Origin: a virus | Reading direction: 5' to 3' (one strand) | DNA length: 58,678 nucleotides | IMG/VR virus record: IMGVR_UViG_3300045972_000025 | Coordinates: 1-58,678 of that record | Part shown: in pieces, positions 8,149 to 58,017 of the stretch | Numbering within the stretch: the stretch's first letter is position 1 | Layout: the number at the start of each line of letters is the position of its first letter | Program-made: the position numbers and the translations under genes | The notes under the pieces: generated by a model | What the model was told of the DNA's origin: nothing | The model's database searches: none | Seen by the model: the letters and a program-made list of their open reading frames with translations, nothing else

Positions 8149-8190
8149 AATGAACCTGTCTGTTGTGTAATAATGACAGACAGGTTCATT
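8149..8190 (+). terminator. perfect 15-bp hairpin after the tail sheath gene
   Basis: AATGAACCTGTCTGT (8149-8163) and its exact reverse complement (8176-8190) enclose a 12-nt loop. There is no clear U-tract, so it may be a terminator, an RNA-processing site or an mRNA-stabilising 3' end. It begins 9 bp after the sheath stop. Confidence 0.6.
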
Positions 8191-20704: not shown

Positions 20705-20722
20705 CGAAAAATAGTATTCGAT

Positions 20723-20754
20723 AAAATAGCTCACTGAAAATGTGAGCTATTTTA
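20723..20754 (+). terminator. rho-independent terminator, 12-bp stem
   Basis: AAAATAGCTCAC, 7-nt loop, GTGAGCTATTTT, then ATTATT. Symmetric A/T flanks make it potentially bidirectional. Confidence 0.88.
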
Positions 20755-20776
20755 TTATTCGTTGGTAATAATTAAG

Positions 20777-29785: not shown

Positions 29786-30175
29786 ATGTTCAAGGTCTAT
29801 ATTCTAGTCTGTTTCGTCAGTTCGTTAACAACTCTAGCTATTGCTCATAATAAACTAATCATGAGTGGTCAAGGGTTTAAATCCCCATGGTGGGATAAGA
29901 TTACAATCTGTGTACTAGCGACTATTCTGATTTCTTATTTCAGTAATATACATCTAGAATTACCGAAAGCTCCATCTGTTTTCATTTCGGTAATTACTTT
30001 AATTATTACGATATCATTGTTCATCGTCAAGAACGCAGTTACCGATGCCCAATTCAACCCAAAGGAATATAATGTAGAAACTATGCGAGAGGATTCGCTG
30101 TATAAAATTGATGTACGACATCCTCTGATCTACAATATTATATTCTATGGCTGGCTTTTAATCCTCATTTTATAA
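29786..30175 (+). CDS. small multi-pass membrane protein, 129 aa
   Basis: ATG after GGAG. Four hydrophobic segments (about residues 3-21, 36-54, 62-83, 110-129) suggest a multi-pass inner-membrane protein. No recognised family. A holin or membrane-takeover role is possible, but its place after the terminase gives no firm clue. Confidence 0.55.
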   Translation: MFKVYILVCFVSSLTTLAIAHNKLIMSGQGFKSPWWDKITICVLATILISYFSNIHLELPKAPSVFISVITLIITISLFIVKNAVTDAQFNPKEYNVETMREDSLYKIDVRHPLIYNIIFYGWLLILIL

Positions 30176-30184
30176 ACTTTCGAG

Positions 30185-30209
30185 CTCATAAGTGAGTCAT
30201 ACTTATGAG
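30185..30209 (+). repeat. 9-bp inverted repeat over a start codon
   Basis: CTCATAAGT, spacer GAGTCAT, ACTTATGAG. It covers the GTG at 30192 of the next gene, so it may fold over the start region or be an operator. Confidence 0.5.
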
Positions 30210-30698
30210 TATAAAATGTTAAGATTACAGCCTCGGACAAGTGAGCTGATGAAGCTCAAGGATCCAGTTAAATCCCTGATTGAAATTATTAACAGTCTCC
30301 CGGTCCCGATAGTAGTCATAAAAGATGATGAAGATGGACAGAGAGTTTTATTTAAGAACACGGAATGTGCTCATATATCGGATACTGTCCTTTTAGACTC
30401 ATATAGAACTGATGATCCTTTATTAGATGAAAGAGAAAAGATATTCAACATGGAAAATGGGGATATCTTATGGCAATTTAGTAGGGATATGGGAGATAGT
30501 AGAATAACATTTGATATTCTCTATCCTGTATTTCAAAAGAATGAAAAACCTAGAGGATCCAGAACGTTATCAGAATCTATTCAGAAGATTCGTAATGCTA
30601 ATGAGAAATTAGAATCATTGATAATGGCCAGGATGGAAAACTTATCCCCGGAGTCGAGGAATAATCTTCTGGCGAAACGTGGGTTACTACCAGTTTAA
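30192..30698 (+). CDS. hypothetical protein, 168 aa
   Basis: Two starts are possible: GTG 30192, inside an inverted repeat, and ATG 30216 (MLRLQPRTSELMKL). Neither has a strong ribosome site. The product has an N-terminal beta-alpha stretch (LPVPIVVIKDDEDGQRVLF) reminiscent of PAS-like folds and a helical C-terminus (QKIRNANEKLESLIMARMEN). No certain function. Confidence 0.5.
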   Translation: MSHTYEYKMLRLQPRTSELMKLKDPVKSLIEIINSLPVPIVVIKDDEDGQRVLFKNTECAHISDTVLLDSYRTDDPLLDEREKIFNMENGDILWQFSRDMGDSRITFDILYPVFQKNEKPRGSRTLSESIQKIRNANEKLESLIMARMENLSPESRNNLLAKRGLLPV

Positions 30699-31658: not shown

Positions 31659-32432
31659 TTGACTGAAGTCATCGCAGCCGTCGATCAAGAAATTACTGTC
31701 CAAAAGTCAGACTTCAGTTACAAGGAGGTAGTGACGGTAGATGACGATTTCGTCGTCCCGGCTAACTTCGCTGAGTTCTACGATCGTTATCCCAAGTATA
31801 TACGTACTTGGTTGATTCGCCATCGCTGCCCTCAGGAACTGTTAGCTGACTTCACTCACGATATCATAGAGCATTTCCTCACCGTGTCCGCAAATGGCCA
31901 GGCTAAGGGGATTCTGGATCGTGTGATGTCATTCTCAGGTGACAGGATTGGTGGTAAGTCAGCAGGTAAGTTCTTCTTCTACATCAACCTTCTGCTGACT
32001 CGTAAGTATATGATCTGTATCAAGAAGCGGGTTCAGGAACCTGTGGTACAGCGTAATACAATGAGTATCCAGAGTGAAATTACTGAACAGTATATTCCTG
32101 GGTCAGTATCGTTAGAAGAACTGTTCACCAAACACGGTTGTCAGGATATAGTTCATACTGACTTCCTTGAGGTGCAGAACAAGAAGCATTTCGTTAAAGG
32201 GTTTGTACGGTTCCTGAAGAAGAATGAACCTTCTATCCTCCCTGCTGTCAGCTATTTCATGAAGCATGAGACTATGCCTGAGATCTGCGATGAGAATGCA
32301 TTAAAAATGGAGGAACTGAATAGACTTCGGTCTAGACTCCGGATCCTCGCATCTGTCTATTCTAAGGGACTTACCAAGGTTCCCAACCGTAGAAAGCCAT
32401 ACACCAAGCGGCAGAAGTCTATAGCTGCCTAA
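31659..32432 (+). CDS. phage sigma factor-like protein, 257 aa
   Basis: TTG start at 31659 with AAGGAG (31647-31652) upstream. Residues about 38-75 (FAEFYDRYPKYIRTWLIRHR then PQELLADFTHDIIEHFL) look like sigma70 region 2, with the acidic D-x-x-x-D-I turn. Residues about 178-232 (FVRFLKKNEPSILPAV, MPEICDEN and LNRLRSRLRILASVY) look like region 4. The C-terminus is basic. T4 gp55 is a precedent for a small phage late sigma factor. I infer that it may recognise the late-type motif found before the structural genes. Its leader and early position ahead of primase and polymerase genes fit a middle-phase regulator. Confidence 0.6.
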   Translation: MTEVIAAVDQEITVQKSDFSYKEVVTVDDDFVVPANFAEFYDRYPKYIRTWLIRHRCPQELLADFTHDIIEHFLTVSANGQAKGILDRVMSFSGDRIGGKSAGKFFFYINLLLTRKYMICIKKRVQEPVVQRNTMSIQSEITEQYIPGSVSLEELFTKHGCQDIVHTDFLEVQNKKHFVKGFVRFLKKNEPSILPAVSYFMKHETMPEICDENALKMEELNRLRSRLRILASVYSKGLTKVPNRRKPYTKRQKSIAA

Positions 32433-32441
32433 TCGTAATCG

Positions 32442-32482
32442 AATAGGCCATGACGGTTTATAATTAACCTCATGGCCTATTT
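32442..32482 (+). terminator. 12-bp inverted repeat after sigma-like gene
   Basis: AATAGGCCATGA and TCATGGCCTATT are perfectly complementary with a 16-nt loop, followed by TTCTC. The loop (GGTTTATAATTAACC) is itself partly palindromic and promoter-like. A terminator or operator is likely. Confidence 0.65.
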
Positions 32483-32516
32483 CTCTAGGTATCTATAATT
32501 ATATGTATGGTGGACT

Positions 32517-33149
32517 ATGACAGATCTTCAGGGTATTGAAGATGTTGAATTCAGTAGAGAAGAAGCTAAGAAATTACTAGGTTCTACGTACAACCAGATC
32601 AGTGAACAGAGATGGGAACGGATACGAGAGCTTATAGACTTTAGAGATTTATGCTTAGAAACTACAGGTAAAATACCAAAAGGTGATTCCATATCATGTC
32701 CGTTTCACGGACGAGATAGTAATCCTAGCTTCCACTTGTACCAACGATCTAATGATGCATACTGCTACGGATGTCCCCCTGGTGATCAATACTGGGATCA
32801 TACCAAACTGATCTCTAGACTGCTAGGTTGTTCCAGAGTCCATGCTCTCAAATGGTTAGAAGATAAGTATAATCTACCGAAACTAGATGAACAAGAGGTA
32901 GAGGATGAGCATGTAATCTGCCTTGAGTTTCAGGATGTGAGAGAAGCTTTCATCCAAAAGGCTCGAGAGCTAGTATCGATAGAGAAGAATGATAAAGTAG
33001 CCATGGCTAGAGAACTGATGCGATTATTCTTCATCAGTGAGGGAACAAAAGATCCTTTGTTATGTGCTCAAGTCCTCGGACTCACCAAAGTACGTGCAAT
33101 TCTGAAACAAAAAGAGAAGAGGTTGAAGTCTGGTGAATTTAATATCTAA
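32517..33149 (+). CDS. primase-like CHC2 zinc-finger protein, 210 aa
   Basis: Residues about 60-90 contain SCPFHGRDSNPSFHLY followed by AYCYGCPPG, the C-x2-H...C-x2-C zinc finger of DnaG-type primases. No TOPRIM or catalytic domain follows; the remaining ~120 residues are helical. It sits immediately before DNA polymerase, and its stop overlaps that gene's GTG start region. It may be a primase subunit or a DNA-binding accessory protein. Confidence 0.75.
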   Translation: MTDLQGIEDVEFSREEAKKLLGSTYNQISEQRWERIRELIDFRDLCLETTGKIPKGDSISCPFHGRDSNPSFHLYQRSNDAYCYGCPPGDQYWDHTKLISRLLGCSRVHALKWLEDKYNLPKLDEQEVEDEHVICLEFQDVREAFIQKARELVSIEKNDKVAMARELMRLFFISEGTKDPLLCAQVLGLTKVRAILKQKEKRLKSGEFNI

Positions 33150-36100
33150 GTTCATGGAAGCTCTTGATCCCAAGGACATGAAGATAGTCAAGAAAAAGAA
33201 GAAGGAGAAGCTCCCTTCGGATCTAAGATCTGTATTCGATAGACACGTAAAAGCTATTCAGGAAGCAGGGGTAGACAGCCTAAAGTTTCCTTGGATGCAC
33301 AAGAAGTCTTTCAGATTAATTTCTGACGCAGAAGAGTTAAAGATCTGGATAGAACAAGTTATGGCTGGGGATCGTTATCCAGTTCCTAAGACTGATGAGA
33401 TGTTACCAGCCGTTGCTGTAGATACTGAGACCACAGGACTCGATAACAGAGTCATTATGAAACCTGATGGTTCATATAGCATCAGGAATGAAATCGCTGG
33501 AATCTGTCTATCATCTGATGGTTATGAGGGGATCTATATCCCAGTTACCCATGAAGATGGTAACAACATAGATAGGAAAGAATGTAAGGAGATTTTACAA
33601 GAGTTCTTCAATAACTGCCTACTGATTTTCTATAATGCTAAGTATGATAAAGAGGTCTTGAAGCTTCTCATGGATATTGATATCCGTGAGTATCCATACA
33701 TAGAAGACGTACAGGTAGATGCTTATCTCGAAGATCCTAAGGCAGATTTCGGTGATAAAGGTCATAATGCTGATGGCTTGAAATATCAGTCGAAGACCAG
33801 ACTCAATATGGAACAGATTGAGTTAGGGACCTTATCGAAGGTAAAGGCTGATATGTATAATAAAGAGACTGGTAAGACTAGTCTTAGAATGCAACATGCT
33901 CCATTCAATTGGGTTCCTACTGATATAGCCTTATGGTATGCTGCTGGTGATGCCATTTGTACTTGGTTATTATGGGAGTTAATGCGAGATGAGGCTCGAA
34001 AGCTAGGCCTTGCTCATAAGATTGACCATCAGTTGATCGATACAATCACTTGGGTAGAACGTCAGCGATTCCATGTTGATGTTAAGAAACTCAAGAGAAT
34101 CACCAAATGGCATGCTGGTAAGTTGAAGATTCTACGTGATGAGTTAGAAGCCATTGCTGAGTGGGATATAGTGAGAGGTCCTGGTAGCGATGATGAATTC
34201 AATCCAGGATCCCCACCACAGTTAGTCAAGATCCTGTTTGATCATAAAGGATTTGAACCATTCAATAAGAGTGAGAAGACTGGGATTCCTTCTACTGATG
34301 CTGAAACATTAGAAGAATTAGCTAAAGCTCATCCTGATGATCTGTTCTTGAAGAAGTTACAAGAATATCGGGCTTATGCTTCTCTTCATCCTGGGAATCT
34401 ATGTTATGATCCTGTTGATCATAGTGCCAGAATCTATCTTCGTCAGTGTGTTGTAGCTGGTGGGCGATTGTCTGCTACTGGTGGTGATTTCGAGAAAGAT
34501 GGTGGATTCGGACTCAACATTCAGGCTATCAAACGAGTCGAAGGTAACAAATGGGTAAAAGGTCGCAAGATCCAATCAATACCAGAAGTTACATATAGTA
34601 TCACAGATCTAGATCCTTCATGTTATAAGACAGAGGAGATCAAAGTCAAAAAGAAGAATCCTAGGTATGGGAAGGATCATCTTAACAATAGTGATTGGGT
34701 AGAACCTGAATATCTAGAAACTGATGAGATTGAGACCAAGTATATTCTGGCTAAGGGTATAAAAGGTAATCACTATGCTGAGTACTTCAGTGATTTGTAT
34801 TGTTTGGTCCCAGGTTGTAAGACTTGTGATTTTGTAGATGGCGTAGTAGAGAAGGTGGATTCAGAAGAAATCCTCAACATCCGTAGTCTATTCATTGCTA
34901 AACCAGGATACACATTCTTCACCACCGACTATTCTAACATTGAAATGCGTGTCGCTGCAAACATATCTAAAGAGAGCAGTTTCATCAGTGAGTTCCTTGA
35001 AGGCGAAGGAGATTTCCACTCGTTAACAGCGAGAGCAGTGTTCCCTGAATATACAAATCCAAAGACTCCAAAGGATCGTAAGAAGTTCCTACGTTCTCTG
35101 GCAAAGATCCTCAACTTCGCTCTCTTGTATGGTGGAACTGCGTACACCATCTTTGAAAGTATGAAGAAGGTTCAGAAGAACATTACTTTTGAAGAATGTA
35201 AGGTCATGGTCGAAAAATACTGGGAGAAGGTCCCAGAGTTTGCTGCTTGGGTGAAAGAGCGTCAGGATATGGCTAAGAACAAGATGATCTGTAAGACCGT
35301 TACAGGTCGAGTCATTAAGTTCGACTCAGCCATGAGAGCTCAGAAGATCTTCGTACCAACATCAGAGCATAAAGAAAACTATCGTAGATGGTGGGAAATA
35401 AAGAATGCTATAAAAGAATTAGAAGGTCAAGAAGGTTCTGGTTCTAATATAGCTAGACTCAGGAAGACTGCTGACGCTATGTACTTCGATAAAGAAACTG
35501 GTGTACGAAATCATCAGGATTACAAGAAGTTTCTGGGTAAGATTCAGAGAGTAAGTATCAACATTCCTCTCCAGGGTCTAGCTGGTGATTTTATGAGACT
35601 GGCTCTTAATCATATTAGACTATGGTCACAATCTGACTGTGGTGTAGAGTCTGTATATGAATTACATGGATCAGTACATGATGAGATCGATTACTCAGTA
35701 AAGAATGAGTATGTCCCATTCATTATCCCTAGACTAACTCGATTGATGAAGCTTCGTGACATTCATGAACGACAGAAATGGCCAGTACCTATTGAGTGTG
35801 ATACTGAATATGGTAGATCTTGGGATGTGACTGAACACTTAACAGGTGACAGTGGCCATGAACCAGCTGGATGGACCATGATCGAAGGTTTAGAGTCATA
35901 TATTCCTGGTGGTGTAGATTTCGATAAAGTATATAAAGCTCTGGCTTCAGAAGATACAAGAGATAAGGCCTTGATCTACCTAGAGATGAATCTGAATCCT
36001 AGAACGAAGGAAGCTCAGAAGGTATTGAAAGAGTATGCCTATTCTGGTAAAGAGTACAGAAGGCAACTCATTGTATGTTATCAGCTCGATGAATATTGGA

Positions 36101-36549
36101 ATATTGATCAGGAACCAGACGATTCTAATCTTGAGACCATCTCTGAGTATGAACTTAGAATGGGTCTGGATCCAAACAACCGACCTGCTCTACCAGTAGG
36201 TGGTAGGTTAGGAACTATTTCTATGGAGTATAAGGTACCGAATGTTATACAGATCAAGGATGTCGCTGAAGAAATTGATGAAGAAGTTCAAGAAGAACCA
36301 GACACTTCGGCTCCGGTTTTGGTTATGGGTTCTGAGCCTGAAGAAATAGAATACGAATATGATAAAGATGGAATTGTTTATATAAGAGATGAGATAGATG
36401 ATGCGATATTCCAGGAATTAAATAATAGTCTAGGTATTGGAAACAATAAGTGTAAGGTACATTACAGAGATCAGATCCTGACTCTACAGAAAGTATTCAA
36501 AACAGAAGTTCCTGACATTTATAAGAGGGTAAAGAAATGCCTAAGATAA
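33133..36549 (+). CDS. family A DNA polymerase with 3'-5' exonuclease, 1138 aa
   Basis: Exonuclease motifs: DTETTGL (about residue 97), FYNAKYD (about 165-171) and WYAAGD (about 267-272). Polymerase motifs: TTDYSNIEMR (motif A, about 597-606), KILNFALLYG (motif B, about 658-667) and HDE (motif C, about 850-852). Between exonuclease and motif A is a Cys-bearing insertion (LVPGCKTCDFVDG). After motif C comes an extra ~240 residues ending in an acidic linker and a small C-terminal domain (KCKVHYRDQILTL). T7-type and Pol I enzymes are usually 600-930 aa, so this one is long. GTG 33133 is taken as start; ATG 33154 is an alternative. Confidence 0.92.
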   Translation: MNLISKFMEALDPKDMKIVKKKKKEKLPSDLRSVFDRHVKAIQEAGVDSLKFPWMHKKSFRLISDAEELKIWIEQVMAGDRYPVPKTDEMLPAVAVDTETTGLDNRVIMKPDGSYSIRNEIAGICLSSDGYEGIYIPVTHEDGNNIDRKECKEILQEFFNNCLLIFYNAKYDKEVLKLLMDIDIREYPYIEDVQVDAYLEDPKADFGDKGHNADGLKYQSKTRLNMEQIELGTLSKVKADMYNKETGKTSLRMQHAPFNWVPTDIALWYAAGDAICTWLLWELMRDEARKLGLAHKIDHQLIDTITWVERQRFHVDVKKLKRITKWHAGKLKILRDELEAIAEWDIVRGPGSDDEFNPGSPPQLVKILFDHKGFEPFNKSEKTGIPSTDAETLEELAKAHPDDLFLKKLQEYRAYASLHPGNLCYDPVDHSARIYLRQCVVAGGRLSATGGDFEKDGGFGLNIQAIKRVEGNKWVKGRKIQSIPEVTYSITDLDPSCYKTEEIKVKKKNPRYGKDHLNNSDWVEPEYLETDEIETKYILAKGIKGNHYAEYFSDLYCLVPGCKTCDFVDGVVEKVDSEEILNIRSLFIAKPGYTFFTTDYSNIEMRVAANISKESSFISEFLEGEGDFHSLTARAVFPEYTNPKTPKDRKKFLRSLAKILNFALLYGGTAYTIFESMKKVQKNITFEECKVMVEKYWEKVPEFAAWVKERQDMAKNKMICKTVTGRVIKFDSAMRAQKIFVPTSEHKENYRRWWEIKNAIKELEGQEGSGSNIARLRKTADAMYFDKETGVRNHQDYKKFLGKIQRVSINIPLQGLAGDFMRLALNHIRLWSQSDCGVESVYELHGSVHDEIDYSVKNEYVPFIIPRLTRLMKLRDIHERQKWPVPIECDTEYGRSWDVTEHLTGDSGHEPAGWTMIEGLESYIPGGVDFDKVYKALASEDTRDKALIYLEMNLNPRTKEAQKVLKEYAYSGKEYRRQLIVCYQLDEYWNIDQEPDDSNLETISEYELRMGLDPNNRPALPVGGRLGTISMEYKVPNVIQIKDVAEEIDEEVQEEPDTSAPVLVMGSEPEEIEYEYDKDGIVYIRDEIDDAIFQELNNSLGIGNNKCKVHYRDQILTLQKVFKTEVPDIYKRVKKCLR

Positions 36550-42245: not shown

Positions 42246-44909
42246 ATGTTATTAAATGCTGGACCCCTTAATGGAGCAGCCCTAGATGGGTCTAGCATAA
42301 GCTCCTTTTCGGTGGCATCTAATACTTTCATGCCTACTATCACTGGGAGCTTAACCAGTGTTACGAATCAAATATGTAATGGGGCTGGGACATCTTTCAC
42401 TCTAGCAGATGGCGGGACTAATCTATCTGTCCCCACTATCATACTGACTTCCCTTAGTAGAACTGATTGGCAGGGAACAACAACTCTGTCTTCAGTTCCT
42501 AGGACTAATTTAATATCTCATACTGAGATCCCAGCAACTGGTAGTACTTGGTCTTTTTCTCAAGGAGCAGGAGCTGTTAGTGTTTCTACTGGGCCAGATG
42601 GAACAGCTTGTGCTCAAATCAACTGGACTGCTGTAGGACAAGATGTAGCGTCTAGTACATTCGCTCAAGTAGCAGGGCAGACATACACTGGTGTTATCTG
42701 GATTAATCCATCTGTTGATCTTACTAGTGGCTATGTATGGGTCGTCGGTAACATTGTTAAGACTATTGATTCTGGTGCTAATAAGATACCAGCTAATACC
42801 TGGACTAAAATACAATATTCTGCCGTTGCTTCTGTTAGTACTACTGCATATGGTATAATGATTCGTTCAGGAGTGTATCCCTGTTCAATCAAGTTAGCTG
42901 CTCCTGCATGTTACCTAGGTAGTTCTGCTGGTATATTTATTCCAAATACGACAGGTTCCCCATTAGCTTCAACTGATTATACCATATCTGGGAATACTGT
43001 TACACTAGCTCAATCTACTTCAGCTGGTAACATAAAATGGACAGGAACTTACTCTCCATATTCAGGTGTAGCCGCTGTAGGTGAATCAGTAGCATCAAAC
43101 ACTAATATGCCTGTAATCAGTACTGTAGCTAGTTTCGTACATGCTATTGGTGTCACATATAATTCAGCAATGCCTCCTATAACAGGTACAGGATACTTAG
43201 CCTATGGTGAGGGTGGTTCCGATACTAGAACTATAACAGTGACTCTGGAGTTCAATCATGCTCCTACCATTGATATGCCAGTACTCTATCAAGCGACAAG
43301 AAATGAGGAATACTGGATAAGGCCTACTGTAGTTGATTTAGATAATGATGATCTAATATATCAATGGACTCAGATATCTGGATCAACAGCGAGAACTTCG
43401 AATCCTGCTTTGAAGGATCTGCTAGTAAAACTCCATAATCTAAATCCAGCTGGTGAAGATCTAGTATTCTCTTTGACTGTTACGGATTCTATCAATACAC
43501 CAATAACATCTCTCATAACCATCAAAGTACCTGCTTTAGCTACATCGTTAAAAGATACTTCTTTGATTAAGACTACTGGTCCTAAATCTAATAGGATAGC
43601 TCTTAGAAACACTCCATCTGTATGGAATCCAGTCTATAATCTGAACCCAACATCATATTCTGATGCTTTTAATTTCAAGACACAAAATACAGAATCTGGG
43701 ATTAGAAAAATCTATATCAGTGACAAATCATCTCTTATAACAGATGATATAAAGAACGGAACACCTGGATATTATAAGAGAAGAATAACATATAAGGGTA
43801 AGGTCTTAGATTCCATCCACACAGAAGACGATAGTACATATCTCTTAGTAAAAGACGGGGATACCTTATCATTATTACACTATATGTCATCAGGATACCA
43901 GGGAATATCTGATTATCCTGATACTGAACTGAATATCAGTAGTATAGTAAATGAAACATTCTCTGGATTACACTTCACAGCTCCAGCCGATGGATATAGA
44001 GTAATTTCATTATATGGTGCTTCTGGTGTTCTGATTATTCAGTGTAATACACAGGATGTATCTGATGTAAGACAGAACATGTATGTCGCTACTGAGACTA
44101 ATCTATTGATTGGTTCTGATTCAGTTACATTCATCAGAGATATGGATGTTCTAAATCCAGGTACTGGTCAATACCTTATCGGAACACAAGATCAGGCTGG
44201 TAATTCATATGAAGTCTTATTAGACCTTCAATCCCGTAGAATTATAAATACATGGGATAGGGGTAACACCATATCATCTGATATCACAAGTGGTGAATTT
44301 TTATTCAAGAAACACTTGCTACCCCTCATAAAGCCTGTAGCACCTTATCTAACAGCTACAATAGAGGGTAACGATATCAATCTGGAATGGACACAAGAAC
44401 GATATCAAGATGTGAAATACTATGATATCTACATGTGTATGAATGATGGTGAATACACTCGTGTTAAGCGTATAGATTCAGGATACATATTATCTACTGT
44501 ACTATCTGGATATGATTTAGATGGTAATATTATCGATATAAAGATGGTATCTGGTACTGATTATGCTGTCAGTGACTTCAGTAATGTAGTAGAGTTTATT
44601 GGATACGATGTAGATCCCAGATGGAGTATAGGAACTTGGAGTTATGCACCATATGAACTCGGTGACATTAACGGTACATACGTAGGTCTGGCTTTCGATG
44701 TATTCATGATAAGCTATGGATTCGGTATCCTACAATTTGGATTAGATCCTTGGGGAGTACCTGGTTATGAAACCAATCCTATTATAGATGGATGGGGCCA
44801 AGAACCATGGTATGGAGATTTCTGGGGTGCTGTCGGTTTCGAAACTACACCATGCTATGGTTATGGTAAAGAACCCTATGGTGATGATGTGTATGATGAG
44901 ATCGGCTAG
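42246..44909 (+). CDS. large modular tail protein with PKD/Fn3-like domains, 887 aa
   Basis: Beta-rich throughout. Two copies of a VASNT-x-MP-I motif lie in the N-terminal third (SVASNTFMPTITG and SVASNTNMPVIST). A PKD-like segment (DLDNDDLIYQWTQISG) lies near 350-375 and a fibronectin-III-like segment (NDINLEWTQERYQDVKYYDI) near 710-730. The last ~80 residues are rich in Gly, Tyr, Trp and Pro with repeats such as GWGQEP and GYGKEP. It is likely a host-contact or fibre-network protein. Confidence 0.55.
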   Translation: MLLNAGPLNGAALDGSSISSFSVASNTFMPTITGSLTSVTNQICNGAGTSFTLADGGTNLSVPTIILTSLSRTDWQGTTTLSSVPRTNLISHTEIPATGSTWSFSQGAGAVSVSTGPDGTACAQINWTAVGQDVASSTFAQVAGQTYTGVIWINPSVDLTSGYVWVVGNIVKTIDSGANKIPANTWTKIQYSAVASVSTTAYGIMIRSGVYPCSIKLAAPACYLGSSAGIFIPNTTGSPLASTDYTISGNTVTLAQSTSAGNIKWTGTYSPYSGVAAVGESVASNTNMPVISTVASFVHAIGVTYNSAMPPITGTGYLAYGEGGSDTRTITVTLEFNHAPTIDMPVLYQATRNEEYWIRPTVVDLDNDDLIYQWTQISGSTARTSNPALKDLLVKLHNLNPAGEDLVFSLTVTDSINTPITSLITIKVPALATSLKDTSLIKTTGPKSNRIALRNTPSVWNPVYNLNPTSYSDAFNFKTQNTESGIRKIYISDKSSLITDDIKNGTPGYYKRRITYKGKVLDSIHTEDDSTYLLVKDGDTLSLLHYMSSGYQGISDYPDTELNISSIVNETFSGLHFTAPADGYRVISLYGASGVLIIQCNTQDVSDVRQNMYVATETNLLIGSDSVTFIRDMDVLNPGTGQYLIGTQDQAGNSYEVLLDLQSRRIINTWDRGNTISSDITSGEFLFKKHLLPLIKPVAPYLTATIEGNDINLEWTQERYQDVKYYDIYMCMNDGEYTRVKRIDSGYILSTVLSGYDLDGNIIDIKMVSGTDYAVSDFSNVVEFIGYDVDPRWSIGTWSYAPYELGDINGTYVGLAFDVFMISYGFGILQFGLDPWGVPGYETNPIIDGWGQEPWYGDFWGAVGFETTPCYGYGKEPYGDDVYDEIG

Positions 44910-44916
44910 TTAAAAG

Positions 44917-44940
44917 AAACTTCTGTTCCCTTATATGATG
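44917..44940 (+). promoter_or_regulatory. late-type promoter motif, copy 11 (first tailspike)
   Basis: AAACTTCTGTTCCCTTATAT followed by GATG. It forms the left arm and loop start of the inverted repeat at 44925-44957. Confidence 0.55.
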
Positions 44941-44957
44941 CTAGAATATAAGGGAAC
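44925..44957 (+). promoter_or_regulatory. hairpin hiding the ribosome site of the first tailspike
   Basis: GTTCCCTTATAT (44925-44936) and ATATAAGGGAAC (44946-44957) are perfect complements with a 9-nt loop. The right arm contains the Shine-Dalgarno AAGGGA; ATG is at 44961. RNA starting inside the loop would lack the left arm, whereas read-through RNA would be folded shut. Confidence 0.65.
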
Positions 44958-44960
44958 CTA

Positions 44961-47051
44961 ATGGCTACGACTCCTAATTATAATTTTTATCTACCTGAAG
45001 TAGGGGATGGCTCAGTAAATTCTAGACCTTGGGGTCTACAGGTAAATGCTAATTTTACTAATATAGATGCTACTTTAAAGAGTCTAGCAGATGCTAATCA
45101 ACAGGAATCTGTACTTAATTTTCCTGGATGCGATCCTACTGGTGTTACAGATTCTTCTGCTGCTTTCAATGCAGCTATCCGAGCCAGTAAACGAGTATAT
45201 GTACCTTCTGGTATCTATATTCTGGATAATGTGGATCTGGCCAATGGTACTGAGCTCTATGGTGATGGTCCTACTTCTATTCTAAGACAGCCATCTACTG
45301 GTAATGGACGAATGATTAATGCTAATAGAAACAGTGGTGGTTCTTCTGATCCATCTACTAATCTAAAAGGCATCCATATTCATGATCTAAGAATGGAAGG
45401 TCGTGTAGCTACTTTAGGATTCTTCGAGCAATCATCTCTAGTATATGTCTCAGCTGTTTCATCTTTAATGATAGAACGCTGCACCTTCTATGCATGGCAA
45501 GGTGATGCTGTTACAATAGCCTCTGGTGACATCGATGGTCTGGAACGACACAATGAACATGTGACTGTAAGAGATTGCTTCTTTGATGGTTATAACAAAG
45601 ATAACAGACAGGGTATATCGATCTTAGATTGTAATGGCCTGTTGATTGAGAACTGCTCATTCGTTAACTGTACTCGTTCTAATATGCCTGGTGCTATTGA
45701 CTTCGAACCTAATGCATCTCAGTTAGCATATGGTGTAGCTAAGAATGTTACCATTAGAAAATGTAGATTCAAGAACATTGGTGGTAACGTAGGTACCATA
45801 GGCTTCATGTTATCTGGTGATCGTGGTACTAAGTGCCAGAATTTCTTGATTGAAGATTGTCAGATGGATACAATTGTGTATGGTATTGCTTTCCTAGCCC
45901 CTACATATACTGGTCTAAATAAATATAATCATAATGTAGTCGTTCGTGACGTTACTATAGTAAATGCCTCTGGTGGATTCTCTACCAATTTCGATAGTGT
46001 AAATAAAGGTCTGTTCGAGAATTTCTCTGTCACTGATTCATCTGTAACAGCTGGTAGATTCAATGCATGTAGTAACTTCGTCTTCAATTCTTGTTCATGG
46101 ACCAGAGACGTCATTGATGGGAATGGCTCAGTACAATTAGCTGATCTTAATTATAATTTTAGATTCAACGATTGCCGTTGGGAAGATTGTGGTGCTGCTG
46201 GTGGTGGCTTCGGTGTATTCTGTGTCAACAACCTGACCACTGAGACATCAGTCGCTATATCATTCGTTAACTGTAGATTTACATCTCCTCTTGGTAAGAT
46301 GTTGTATGCTATCTATGGTCCTGGTCATAGATTTGTAGCAGCTACCAATAAATTCATTGGTTGTACAGTTGATCCAGTACTTGGGAATAGTTTTGTGGCT
46401 GAAGAGACAGATACTTTATCTAATCTGTATACACCTGTGGCTACTGGTGTCACCACGGCTGGAACTCCAACATATACTACACAGTATGGGGAGTATAGAA
46501 GAGTTGGGAAGACTGTATTCTTTAGATCGCAGATTGAAACCAGTAACAGTACTGGTATGGCTGGCAACCTACAGATATCATTACCAACTGACGCTGATCA
46601 GATAGCAGGACAACCAGTGGCTTCTTTATACCCTGTATCGACTGTTGTAGATGGTGTAGCTTCTACTGGTGGTCAATTCGGTGCAATCAATCCTCTGGCT
46701 GTGTCTGGTGGTCATACTGGATCCATAAGAATGTTTATGACTGGTACTGGAGTAGCGAGTCAGATAACAACTCCAGCTGGTGCCTTCAAGGTGTATTCAA
46801 CTGGTGTATATACTGGTAGACTTCAAACTACTGCATTCCGTGGATCAATATCAGGAACTACTCTAACACTATCTTCTGATGCATATGGTGGATTGTTTGC
46901 TCTTAATCAGACTCTTGGTGGTTTCACAGGTTGTATAGTACCCACTACTATTACCACTAAGTTGTCTGGTACATTAGGTAAGGCTGGTTCAACATATACT
47001 GTATCTCAGACATATGGTACAATAGCAAACACTCAGATCTTATCATTCTAA
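44961..47051 (+). CDS. tailspike 1 with right-handed beta-helix, 696 aa
   Basis: The N-terminal ~40 residues (TPNYNFYLPEVGDGSVNSRP then WG...NANFTNIDATL) are shared with the next two genes and form a likely baseplate-attachment anchor. Residues about 60-460 follow a pectate-lyase-type beta-helix pattern starting with DSSAAFNAAIRASKRVYVPS, a hallmark of depolymerase spikes. The C-terminal part (YGEYRRVGKTVFFRSQI) resembles a fibre knob. It is probably a capsular or O-antigen depolymerase, but the catalytic residues cannot be placed. Confidence 0.75.
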   Translation: MATTPNYNFYLPEVGDGSVNSRPWGLQVNANFTNIDATLKSLADANQQESVLNFPGCDPTGVTDSSAAFNAAIRASKRVYVPSGIYILDNVDLANGTELYGDGPTSILRQPSTGNGRMINANRNSGGSSDPSTNLKGIHIHDLRMEGRVATLGFFEQSSLVYVSAVSSLMIERCTFYAWQGDAVTIASGDIDGLERHNEHVTVRDCFFDGYNKDNRQGISILDCNGLLIENCSFVNCTRSNMPGAIDFEPNASQLAYGVAKNVTIRKCRFKNIGGNVGTIGFMLSGDRGTKCQNFLIEDCQMDTIVYGIAFLAPTYTGLNKYNHNVVVRDVTIVNASGGFSTNFDSVNKGLFENFSVTDSSVTAGRFNACSNFVFNSCSWTRDVIDGNGSVQLADLNYNFRFNDCRWEDCGAAGGGFGVFCVNNLTTETSVAISFVNCRFTSPLGKMLYAIYGPGHRFVAATNKFIGCTVDPVLGNSFVAEETDTLSNLYTPVATGVTTAGTPTYTTQYGEYRRVGKTVFFRSQIETSNSTGMAGNLQISLPTDADQIAGQPVASLYPVSTVVDGVASTGGQFGAINPLAVSGGHTGSIRMFMTGTGVASQITTPAGAFKVYSTGVYTGRLQTTAFRGSISGTTLTLSSDAYGGLFALNQTLGGFTGCIVPTTITTKLSGTLGKAGSTYTVSQTYGTIANTQILSF

Positions 47052-47060
47052 AGGAACGTC

Positions 47061-49118
47061 ATGTCATCTAACACTCCTAATTATAATTTCTATCTCCCAG
47101 AGGATGGGGATGGTGTTGGTAACTCAAAACCATGGGGACCTGCAGTAAATGAGAATTTTACTATAATAGATGAATCTCTATCTGAGATGGTTACCAATAT
47201 ATCGCATAAAATCGATGATACTCAGGTAGTTACTCCAATTAAGTTTGGTTGTGTTGGTGATGGTGTAGCCAATGATTCAATAGGATTCAAAGAATTTTTA
47301 ACATACATAGCGTCTAACCATTGTATAGCTGATGGATTAGGTAAGATCTACAGATTGGTAGGATCAATGGATATCACACCAGTTGTCGATGTCTTTTTAA
47401 GGAATATGAAGATTATCACAGGTACTACAACTGGTGCTTATCTAGACCAGGTGGCTATAACATTTAATGGTGATGTTAATTTTGCATTCGAGAATTTCTC
47501 TATAGATGGGGAACGGGATATCCGTACTGATCTAGAACCATGGCATTATTACACTCAAGAACCAGCAGCATCAGGACAATATTCTCTACAACCACCGACT
47601 AATGTACCAATCATGATTACTGGATTTTATGCTAAGAAAGTAGACATGAGAAATGTCACTTTCACCAACATCCATGCACAGGCACCAATCATCATATTTA
47701 GTCGTGGACAGGTAAATATAGATGGCTTCGTCGCAAAAGGTTGTTCAAACGATGCCTTCGATATCAGACATATAAATGTTGATAATGAGACAGTAGAGAG
47801 ACGAGTAGTTGCTTATAATCATGGATGTACGAATCTTAATAATGCATTTGTCGAAAATAATGGAATCATGAAGGCACAATTCAGTGTTGATTGTACAAGT
47901 AAAACATCACCAGTAATTGGTGGTTCGTATGTTACTGTAAATAGAACGGATAATTTCTTCGCACAAGGTGCTTTTGGACTTATTGTTGCAGGTGGGACCT
48001 TTAATGCCAATAATATTGTTATTCATAACTATGGGACTGCTGGAATCGTTTTCGATAGAAATATGGTAGGAAGTCTTACTAATTGTCGTGTAGTCCATGA
48101 TGATGTAAATGCATGCTCTAATAATCCTTCTGGGGCAGTCTGGACTGAACAGATATATAGTTTCACACTGAGCAATGTTACTATCGATATTCTAGCACGT
48201 GATCCTCGTGAAGCTTTATTTGATAGTAGTGCGCTTGAATTATATGGTGTAACTGCTGATGTTGCTGATGCTTTACCAAATTATTATGGGACATCAACAC
48301 ACATAATTGATAATCTCTTCATAACTACAGCTGCTGCTGCTCATTTGAATAAAGGTATTCGTATATCATCATATAAAGGTTGTGAATATAAGATATCGAA
48401 TACAGTCATTGATGCATCAAATGCAGTATGGGCTCTCTCTTCTGAGAGCAATACACCTTCTGTACCTACTAGATATGTACATCTAAATAATGTTAATATT
48501 TCTGGTAATATGAGAGTATTCGATTGTTCTGAAATCTCACTCTCTTCTGTTAAGAGTAGTGGAACTTTAACATTCAATCGTGTATCTCAAGCCAGTCTTA
48601 ATAATTGTGAATATGCTGATGATTTTTATTATCAGAATACTACATTAGGCAAACTGACTGCTACGAAGTGTAAGATGGATAAACAATTTGTTCTCCAAGG
48701 TATAAATGGTGATGTAACACTCGATAGTTGTAAGATTGGACAAGACTTATATACTATGGTATACGCAAGTAATATTATTCCTAGATTTAATATGACTGGA
48801 GGAACTATTGGTCGCGTTACTAGTCTAGATGCTATTAGTTCTGCAATGATCTCTGGTGTAGAAACTGAAGATCGTATGGAATTTAAGAATGTCAAGACAT
48901 ATGTAGTGACAGGATGTACAGTGAAGTTAGCCAACCCTAATGCTTGTATCAGAGCAATGGAGACTACCCCAGGTTACACGGTTCGGGCTGTTATAAAGAA
49001 CAACTGTCTATGGATCAAAACCGGAACAGCTGCTGCTGGTTATATCTATAATGGTATTACAGGAACATTGATCGGTGATGCCTCCAACAATGATGAAGCA
49101 ACAATAGCCTGGGTTTAA
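47061..49118 (+). CDS. tailspike 2 with beta-helix, 685 aa
   Basis: Same N-terminal anchor (TPNYNFYLPEDGDGVGNSKP) followed by a beta-helix domain that is different from tailspike 1 (GVANDSIGFKEFLTYIAS in the start region). No knob like those of tailspikes 1 and 3 is obvious. ATG after AAAGGAACGTC, 9 bp behind the previous stop. Confidence 0.7.
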   Translation: MSSNTPNYNFYLPEDGDGVGNSKPWGPAVNENFTIIDESLSEMVTNISHKIDDTQVVTPIKFGCVGDGVANDSIGFKEFLTYIASNHCIADGLGKIYRLVGSMDITPVVDVFLRNMKIITGTTTGAYLDQVAITFNGDVNFAFENFSIDGERDIRTDLEPWHYYTQEPAASGQYSLQPPTNVPIMITGFYAKKVDMRNVTFTNIHAQAPIIIFSRGQVNIDGFVAKGCSNDAFDIRHINVDNETVERRVVAYNHGCTNLNNAFVENNGIMKAQFSVDCTSKTSPVIGGSYVTVNRTDNFFAQGAFGLIVAGGTFNANNIVIHNYGTAGIVFDRNMVGSLTNCRVVHDDVNACSNNPSGAVWTEQIYSFTLSNVTIDILARDPREALFDSSALELYGVTADVADALPNYYGTSTHIIDNLFITTAAAAHLNKGIRISSYKGCEYKISNTVIDASNAVWALSSESNTPSVPTRYVHLNNVNISGNMRVFDCSEISLSSVKSSGTLTFNRVSQASLNNCEYADDFYYQNTTLGKLTATKCKMDKQFVLQGINGDVTLDSCKIGQDLYTMVYASNIIPRFNMTGGTIGRVTSLDAISSAMISGVETEDRMEFKNVKTYVVTGCTVKLANPNACIRAMETTPGYTVRAVIKNNCLWIKTGTAAAGYIYNGITGTLIGDASNNDEATIAWV

Positions 49119-49138
49119 ATTTATCTTAAAGGATCACC

Positions 49139-51109
49139 ATGTCATCTAATACACCTAATTATAATTTGTACCTCCCAGAACTAGGAGATAGTACTAGTAA
49201 CTCCAAACCATGGGGTCGCCAATTCAATAACAATCTGACCATCATAGATACAGAATTAAAGAAATCTGAGACACATAGAGGAGCTGGTGTCATAAATGCA
49301 GTTTCAGATTTCGGCCTAGTAGCTACCAAGAAGGGTGACCGTACAACAGCTGCTACTAATACCCTGGCACTCAATGCTGCCATGGTCAGTGCTCAGGCTA
49401 CAGGTAGACCATTATACATCCCATCAGGTTGGTATGCTGTTAATCCATTAACTACCATAGTAGATAGTATGACTATGTACGGGGACCATGGTGGATACAA
49501 TTCTACATTATCTAAAGGTACTGCTACTATCTTAGATTTCGGTAATGCTCTGGGTCAAGATGGACAGAAATGTATAAATGTTAATCCCCCAGCTGATGGA
49601 TTACAACAGATCAAGACCTTTGAGATCAGAGATATAGTATTCTTCTCAGATGGTGTATCTGGAGCACCTCAATACTTCATCTATAAGAAAATTGCTACGA
49701 ACATGAAGATTCGTGGCTGCAGCTTCCAAGGTAAAGTAGGTACTACAGGATATCCGGGTTATGCTATAGCACATCAATCAGACTATGGTCTCACCATTGA
49801 GTCTTGCACATTCTTGTATCTCTATTGTGAAGGTGCTATATTATTCAAACACGATGGTAACCTAGACGGTAATACTGGATCATGGTCGTATGGATGTTCT
49901 GTAACTGATTGTGATATCTCATTAGGTACGTATGGTAAGTATGGTATCAACATCCAAGGTGGTGTTGGTTATAAGGTAACTAGGACTGTAATAGAAGGAA
50001 CATCTGACACTGGTATAAAATGTAATACTACTCCAACAGCTAATTTAGACTATACATGGGGATTAGTATTAGACACTGTATATTTCGAAGGAAATACAAA
50101 CTATCATTTAGATATATCGAGCCCTCATAATGCCAGCTCTCAAGCCATCATATATGGTGGACAGATGCAGGGTGGTAATATTAATCTAGGAGCTAGTGGT
50201 ACTATCACTATCATGGGATTAACGATATCATCTGGTATATGTCGTATAATGGGGTCAGCTAATGCTGCAGTCAAATTAATAAATTGTGCTGGTTTCTTTA
50301 TTCAGAATAATACAGTTCTATCAGCTAATCCTGTGTCAACACAATGGAGTCCCAGAGATTATTCATATAGATGGAATGAGGATTCACATGATGTAGATTA
50401 TCAGGAAGTAGAATGTCTCCCATTATCAGGTGGTGTAGATAACGTAGCTAGTACTATACAGTGGCATAGTGTGTCTGGTACTAAGCCCGATATCGGGAAT
50501 GGATCACTTCGAGGTTGGTATACTCGTAAGGGTGATCTCATAACACTTAATCTCAATCTAATTCCTGGTACCACTACTGTATGGGGTGATGCTGCTCAAG
50601 GCTGGATATTCATATTCCCCAATTTTACAGCAGCTGATACCGCTGTAGGTAATTGGGTCGCTGAAGATTATAATACTATCACATATGCTGGTCACTTCAG
50701 AGCTATTACTAATAGCAATCAGTTTATGTTAAGTATAGATAATGCCAATTCAGCTGTATCTGCTAGTGTACCTATGACATGGAATTATAATGCTGGATCG
50801 GTTGTAGCTGGTGTGTCATTCAATGGTTACATTCGTGGTGGTGATAATATCTTACATGTGACATCAGGTACTACTCCCACAGTAGGGCAGACTGTGTATG
50901 CCACTGGTCTGATGAAGAATGTTACTATCGCTGGTGCTGCCACTCTAGCAGCTGGTGACACAGCAGCATTCTCACTGACTAAGTTAGTTCCAGCTGGTAT
51001 TGGATATAACGATACTACTCAAGTAAGTTCTCCTGTTGCTATGACTACGAACAAGCCAAACCCAGATAATCTTAGTATGCAGATTACATACAAAGTATTT
51101 AAGCTCTAA
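49139..51109 (+). CDS. tailspike 3 with beta-helix, 656 aa
   Basis: Anchor TPNYNLYLPELGDSTSNSKP, then a third distinct beta-helix (LALNAAMVSAQATGRPLYIP at about residues 75-95) and a C-terminal module with LRGWYTRKGDLITLNLNL and a jelly-roll-like end. Followed by a terminator. Three anchor-sharing spikes suggest a branched host-recognition apparatus. Confidence 0.73.
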   Translation: MSSNTPNYNLYLPELGDSTSNSKPWGRQFNNNLTIIDTELKKSETHRGAGVINAVSDFGLVATKKGDRTTAATNTLALNAAMVSAQATGRPLYIPSGWYAVNPLTTIVDSMTMYGDHGGYNSTLSKGTATILDFGNALGQDGQKCINVNPPADGLQQIKTFEIRDIVFFSDGVSGAPQYFIYKKIATNMKIRGCSFQGKVGTTGYPGYAIAHQSDYGLTIESCTFLYLYCEGAILFKHDGNLDGNTGSWSYGCSVTDCDISLGTYGKYGINIQGGVGYKVTRTVIEGTSDTGIKCNTTPTANLDYTWGLVLDTVYFEGNTNYHLDISSPHNASSQAIIYGGQMQGGNINLGASGTITIMGLTISSGICRIMGSANAAVKLINCAGFFIQNNTVLSANPVSTQWSPRDYSYRWNEDSHDVDYQEVECLPLSGGVDNVASTIQWHSVSGTKPDIGNGSLRGWYTRKGDLITLNLNLIPGTTTVWGDAAQGWIFIFPNFTAADTAVGNWVAEDYNTITYAGHFRAITNSNQFMLSIDNANSAVSASVPMTWNYNAGSVVAGVSFNGYIRGGDNILHVTSGTTPTVGQTVYATGLMKNVTIAGAATLAAGDTAAFSLTKLVPAGIGYNDTTQVSSPVAMTTNKPNPDNLSMQITYKVFKL

Positions 51110-57438: not shown

Positions 57439-58017
57439 ATGTACGGACCTCGTCCGGAGAAGGCTATCGATCCATCCGAGTTGGGAAGATTTGAACAACT
57501 CGGATGGATCGGCCAATTGAAGCTCAACGGTACATATACTATCTACGACAACAATGTATATACAAGACATCAGGAAAAGCACAAGCTGTGGGATCCCGTT
57601 TCTAGCAAAGCTATGGTGGAGCTCTGGAAACTGAAAGATACAACAATCTGTGCTGAGCTTCTTCATAAGAAAGTCAGCGGTGGACACCAGGATACCTTGT
57701 ATGTTCATGATCTGTTAACTCATCGAGGTGAAGATCTCGTAGGTTCCACCTACAGAGAAAGGTATAAGCTTCTGATGAACCTCTTCGAGCTCAAGGACAA
57801 TGGGGATTTGGGTCATTTAGTCGTTAATAAGAATCTATGGGTCAGCAGGTGGTTAACCCAGGGATTTAAGTCTGTATTTGATTCTATCACAGATCCAGAG
57901 GTGGAAGGTTTGGTCCTGAAGAATCCTGGAGCTAAGCTGGCATTCTGTGGAAAAGCTGGAAATAATGGGTTCTGGCAGATTAAGTGTCGGAAACCTCATA
58001 AGAATTACTCTTTCTAG
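57439..58017 (+). CDS. DNA/RNA ligase-type nucleotidyltransferase, 192 aa
   Basis: Motif I is QLKLNGTY with the nucleotide-accepting Lys at about residue 28. ICAELLHKK (about 70-78) fits motif III/IIIa, VEGLVLKNP (about 155-163) motif IV, and WQIKCRKP (about 179-186) motif V. The order and spacing match the nucleotidyltransferase core of ATP-dependent ligases, but at 192 aa it lacks an obvious OB domain, so it may be a minimal ligase. ATG after AAGGGG. Confidence 0.72.
   Translation: MYGPRPEKAIDPSELGRFEQLGWIGQLKLNGTYTIYDNNVYTRHQEKHKLWDPVSSKAMVELWKLKDTTICAELLHKKVSGGHQDTLYVHDLLTHRGEDLVGSTYRERYKLLMNLFELKDNGDLGHLVVNKNLWVSRWLTQGFKSVFDSITDPEVEGLVLKNPGAKLAFCGKAGNNGFWQIKCRKPHKNYSF

Follow-up and report, generated by a model that had tools for sequence, protein, structure and literature searches.

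The tailspike locus

The DNA analysed here, a stretch of 58,678 nucleotides called the window below, comes from a soil jumbo phage, one of a group of large myoviruses that have Tunturiibacter phage Tunturi_5 as a relative. A phage collection search returned no close DNA relative of the window, and its proteins match those of Tunturi_5, of an uncultured 485-kb phage and, distantly, of Bacillus phage G. The closest contig, G001 (210,611 bp), has structural proteins in common with it that are 71-89% identical. The genes considered here, all on the plus strand, are as follows.

31659-32432, plus strand: homologue of the annotated Tunturi_5 sigma factor gp3 (29% identity)
32517-33149, plus strand: CHC2 zinc-finger primase-like gene
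33133-36549, plus strand: DNA polymerase
42246-44909, plus strand: gene upstream of the tailspike, 887 aa, its stop codon 15 nt 5' of the hairpin described below
44961-47051, plus strand: tailspike-like protein, 696 aa, right-handed beta-helix (Pfam Pect-lyase_RHGA_epim 4e-13, Beta_helix 1e-11; PHROG pre-neck appendage 2e-8)
47061-51109, plus strand: two more genes, of 685 and 656 aa, preceded by gaps of 9 and 20 nt

The genes of 685 and 656 aa probably share the transcription unit of the tailspike, and the block immediately upstream of the latter is structural (portal, virion protein, tail fibre). Regarding the gene at 31659-32432, it has no Pfam match, and its label as a sigma factor therefore rests on the annotation of Tunturi_5, whose gp3 (annotated as RNA polymerase sigma factor) has a homologue in G001. 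A terminator scan found no strong plus-strand terminator between 36.7 and 44.9 kb; as the replication genes are co-directional and lie upstream, early or middle read-through into the tailspike, with the 31659-36549 block as its source, is possible.

A hairpin enclosing the tailspike ribosome site

Between the 887-aa gene and the tailspike lies a perfect inverted repeat of 12 bp, with all 12 positions complementary and a loop of 9 nt, which is overlapped at its 5' side by a promoter-like signal.

44918-44931, plus strand: candidate late-promoter box AACTTCT-N5-CT, in the best-scoring class of the motif described below
44925-44936, plus strand: left arm GTTCCCTTATAT, anti-Shine-Dalgarno strand
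44932-44940, plus strand: TATATGATG, downstream half of the promoter-like signal in the species pair formed by the window and G001 (CT-TATNATGATGA)
44937-44945, plus strand: loop GATGCTAGA, predicted 5'-end region of a local transcript, judged from box position and leader length
44946-44957, plus strand: right arm ATATAAGGGAAC
44950-44956, plus strand: Shine-Dalgarno (SD) sequence AAGGGAA, inside the right arm; the tailspike ATG is at 44961

The 91-nt region around the hairpin has a z of -2.5 against shuffles, and the window holds four perfect stems of at least 12 bp (loops of 3-12 nt), where a first-order Markov simulation expects 0.1. The preliminary description had proposed that the SD is hidden in read-through RNA and freed by a 5' end within the hairpin, and the computed values bear this out: the mean unpaired probability of the SD is predicted at 0.00 in read-through RNA carrying both arms, compared to 0.36-0.66 for 5' ends from 44931 to 44945. 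The enclosure of an SD or AUG in a stable hairpin, one feature of the T4-type mechanism, is present here, with a 12-bp stem, -15.0 kcal/mol for the isolated hairpin and that probability of 0.00. Since the upstream stop codon precedes the stem by 15 nt, ribosomes terminating there would probably leave it closed.

An Rfam search gave no match to the element. The tailspike and the upstream gene have no homologue among the relatives searched; in the same conservation search, the match in L098 was limited to the N-terminus (40%) and was not accompanied by such a hairpin.

As to other stems in the window, the one at 20721-20755, of at least 12 bp, reads as an intrinsic terminator. A perfect 15-bp intergenic hairpin at 8149-8190, between the sheath gene and the next one, has the loop TGTGTAATAATG and no T-run, and the SD of the next gene falls outside its stem. 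In addition, a perfect 16-bp inverted repeat with a 12-nt loop (57468-57511) lies within the coding region starting at 57439, about 30 nt past its ATG.

A candidate late-promoter box

Motif discovery by EM on 669 upstream regions from the window and its relatives yielded GACTTTC-N4-YCYTNTNANRGAGG, whose core can be written as RACTTYC, five free positions and CT (RACTTYC-N5-CT). From 44918 onwards the tailspike site reads AACTTCT-GTTCC-CT-TATATGATG, so that the left arm begins directly after AACTTCT and the signal extends into the loop. The 12-bp repeat with an SD arm, as first described, stands, with its 12 of 12 pairs and the SD in its right arm, but the left arm as such is not the promoter motif; the conserved signal is instead AACTTCT (44918-44924), 5' of the arm, together with CT and TATATGATG, which occupy the arm's second half and continue into the loop. 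TGA is found at box offset 15-24 in 23 of the 47 sites of the window and G001, and at offset 28-37 in 10 of them.

In the stretch 20-60 nt upstream of starts, the strict box was matched 119 times in sense and 60 times in antisense orientation over the group's 1853 genes; permuted patterns gave 42 +/- 12. The spacing between box and start codon has a sharp maximum at 30-34 nt. Moreover, in Tunturi_5 the box scores higher before structural genes than before others (p = 0.001). Nothing besides the box is conserved upstream of it to -45. The hairpin centre lies at box offset 23 in the tailspike case, and in most relatives at 14.5-20, that is, a few nt closer, a point against the nested-promoter reading given below. 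The window contains a second instance on the plus strand, where the box AACTTTC (30175-30181) is followed by a 9-bp hairpin, CTCATAAGT/ACTTATGAG (30185-30193/30201-30209), before an ATG at 30216; the gene there encodes 160 aa, and an alternative GTG start at 30192 sits within its hairpin.

A factor that may recognize the box is Tunturi_5 gp211 (L101:1918-2616), the second sigma factor of that phage, with a Pfam Sigma70_r2 match above the cut-off and a weak Sigma70_r4_2 match. The paper describing the Tunturi phages (PMC11924767) mentions neither promoters nor transcription. A host sigma-70 promoter at 44910-44939 is also possible, if weakly indicated: TTAAAA-18-TATGAT is a weak match (9/12) in a region having fewer such sites than shuffles, and it would likewise start transcripts near the right arm.

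Coupling of box and hairpin in related phages

The survey covered 3.6 Mb of relatives, with 1572 genes having an SD, and counted perfect stems whose right arm contains the SD; as a control, chimeras were made in which the upstream half of each gene was exchanged for that of another. SD hairpins of at least 7 bp were found before 37 of these genes (chimera mean, 8.9), and those of at least 9 bp before 22 (chimera mean, 1.1). A box adjoins the left arm (PWM score of at least 5) in 8/30, 7/15 and 6/23 hairpins of 6, 7-8 and at least 9 bp, respectively, a share of 26-47% among hairpins of at least 6 bp against a background of 6-7%, as counted with a PWM whose training regions include hairpin genes and with gene starts set by a simple SD-favouring rule. 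Seen from the box, SD stems of at least 5 bp precede 22 of 95 strict box genes (23%) and 100 of 1429 genes without a box (7%). Where a box is close to a start codon, there are 11 stems of at least 6 bp whose centre falls 14.5-20 nt from that box, compared to 1.9 in chimeras; a control position gives 1 versus 0.5. The arm sequences vary from gene to gene yet stay complementary, as expected of RNA pairing.

The genes preceded by SD hairpins include the following.

G004:C1 near 145014 (L151:5015): PD-(D/E)XK endonuclease, 15-bp perfect hairpin GAACCCTTATATGTA/TACATATAAGGGTTC, whose core CCCTTATAT is common to the window hairpin
G004: GIY-YIG homing endonuclease, 10-bp SD hairpin
L057: head-protease homologue, 9-bp SD hairpin
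G002: head-decoration-like protein, 7-bp SD hairpin

In Tunturi_5 itself, the hairpin genes include gp321 and gp141, which have RACTTYC boxes ahead of their starts at record positions 261501 and 104402. A further hairpin-preceded gene, L137:5068-5736 (G003), has matches to the 2'-5' RNA ligase superfamily as well as to the Acb1 model (anti-CBASS). In the window, the gene at 69-1586 encodes a protein that resembles 2'-5' RNA ligases in its N-terminal part and has a weak methyltransferase match in its C-terminal part.

The same scan, which picks up gene 49 and I-TevII in T4 as a positive control, finds SD hairpins of at least 7 bp before 2/105 genes in T4, 1/69 in phiKZ, 2/78 in SPO1 and 37/1572 in the present group; phage G has 0/75. 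An unusual richness of the lineage in SD hairpins was therefore rejected, the rates of T4, phiKZ and SPO1 being similar at this length, and the device is not peculiar to the Tunturi_5-related group. The coupling of the hairpin to the RACTTYC-N5-CT box is the group's own feature.

Box-linked hairpins of at least 6 bp are also found distant from start codons in the relatives (6, compared to 1.0 in the control). SD masking alone does not account for these, and a role of the hairpin in SD masking only is not fully supported. At box sites more than 45 nt from a start (for example L039:2667, L023:18772 and Tunturi_5:302526), short hairpins are centred about 16 nt after the box and their arm lacks an SD; such hairpins may possibly represent a 5' stem of the RNA, a feature of the promoter or unannotated small genes.

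Comparison with known systems

The T4 precedent invoked in the preliminary description is documented for genes e, soc, 49 and I-TevI, where the same logic of a promoter nested in a hairpin was shown by experiment (PMC3014915, PMC2988022). As in T4 e (lysozyme) and soc, the SD of the tailspike is in the right arm, and a late promoter, here a candidate, lies in or beside the left arm. In T4 the long upstream RNA is silent and the late RNA starts inside the hairpin and is translated; for the tailspike both would be expected by analogy. However, the promoter of e and soc is TATAAATA, compared to RACTTYC-N5-CT, and the phage groups are unrelated. The tailspike case differs further in its perfect stem, larger loop, gene and predicted start. 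A T4 late promoter as read by gp55, with TATAAATA some 10 nt upstream of the transcription start, is absent, the site reading AACTTCT-N5-CT-TATATGATG.

The hairpin of T4 gene 49 (ACCCTTA..TAAGGGT) has an anti-SD/SD core, CCCTTA/TAAGGG, nearly the same as that of the tailspike hairpin, because both must pair with AAGGG; it has seven perfect pairs and a T4-type late promoter, compared to 12 pairs here, and the likeness is convergent. The hairpin with a nested promoter is likewise described for I-TevI, I-TevII, I-TevIII, segB and Aeh1 mobE (PMC2988022). Endonucleases carry hairpins in the present group too (GIY-YIG, 10 bp; PD-(D/E)XK, 15 bp), the genes being mostly free-standing and including structural ones; the kinds of hairpin gene are close to those of T4, namely homing endonucleases, endonuclease VII and soc. 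With its putative promoter and start site, the tailspike element is an independent, non-homologous case of the e/soc/49/I-TevI mechanism that has a different promoter.

In phiKZ, late promoters have TATG over the start site (PMC7598289). A TATG (44934-44937) does occur at the left arm's edge, but unlike in phiKZ a longer box is conserved. Late transcription of the phiKZ type was rejected, as the nearest relative G001, a 210-kb contig whose completeness is not established, gave no match to the beta domain of multisubunit RNA polymerases (PF00562).

Interpretation and alternatives

With a probability of about 0.6, this is a nested arrangement of a promoter and a hairpin that masks the SD, by which the tailspike is expressed solely from its own late promoter. 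The left arm and the putative late promoter RACTTYC-N5-CT-TATATGATG overlap. An RNA from this promoter would begin in or near the loop, without most or all of that arm, and so would be translated. A read-through RNA, if made, would have both arms and fold, preventing ribosomes from loading on the tailspike. Thus, the tailspike, and probably the two following genes, would run from their own promoter only, decoupled from upstream transcription units. The silencing of early read-through can only be presumed, because the adjacent upstream genes are themselves structural; for the same reason, masking may be as much a means of making tailspike dosage independent of the late unit upstream as of blocking early expression.

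A different origin of the shortened RNA is conceivable, in which an endonuclease cleaves a polycistronic RNA in or close to the box or loop, removing the left arm and activating the SD. The box is indeed most enriched where the upstream gene is co-directional (79 sense versus 34 antisense), and covariation extends to within a few nt of it; however, it is also found before divergent genes, having no co-directional gene directly upstream (35 sense), and divergent genes make up 26 of the 95 with a strict box, which makes processing an unlikely source. It is similarly improbable that transcription starts further upstream and the hairpin represses translation on all tailspike mRNAs until a protein, temperature or ribosomes open it. 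Such a general repressor would fit the SD hairpins of at least 7 bp that lack a clear box (25 among the 1429 genes without one), but not the promoter-like element that adjoins the arm exactly here, with nothing further conserved 5' of the box as far as -45.

A role in terminating or insulating transcription, or as a protein-bound DNA dyad, appears very unlikely, although T-runs follow the stem in 10 of the 71 SD hairpins of at least 6 bp in relatives and some box-linked hairpins are distant from start codons. The tailspike hairpin lacks the GC-rich stem and T-run of an intrinsic terminator, its inner stem being AT-rich and followed past 44957 by CTAATGG, and it is absent from the terminator-like sites of the scan; as for a dyad, the arm sequences vary between genes, unlike a fixed operator. 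Pairing by chance of a C-rich promoter spacer with the SD can be imagined, as a CCTT-type spacer is intrinsically complementary to AAGG; nevertheless, the 12 perfect pairs, the chimera control and the 0.1 such stems expected in the window leave it hardly credible.

Beyond the single locus, it stands at even odds that the composite element, a late-promoter box plus a gene-specific anti-SD hairpin formed from its spacer, recurs clade-wide in soil jumbo phages and makes certain late genes, namely those for homing endonucleases, for proteins of head and tail and for the tailspike, dependent on their own promoter only, irrespective of transcription running across them. The nested-promoter hairpin of T4 has so far been treated as a few special cases in T4-like phages. 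The tailspike case, found in an unrelated jumbo-phage group in which the kinds of gene concerned match those of T4, suggests that this device is reached repeatedly by large phages. In addition, the box is a first candidate late promoter for the jumbo phages related to Tunturi_5, a cultured phage that allows it to be tested.
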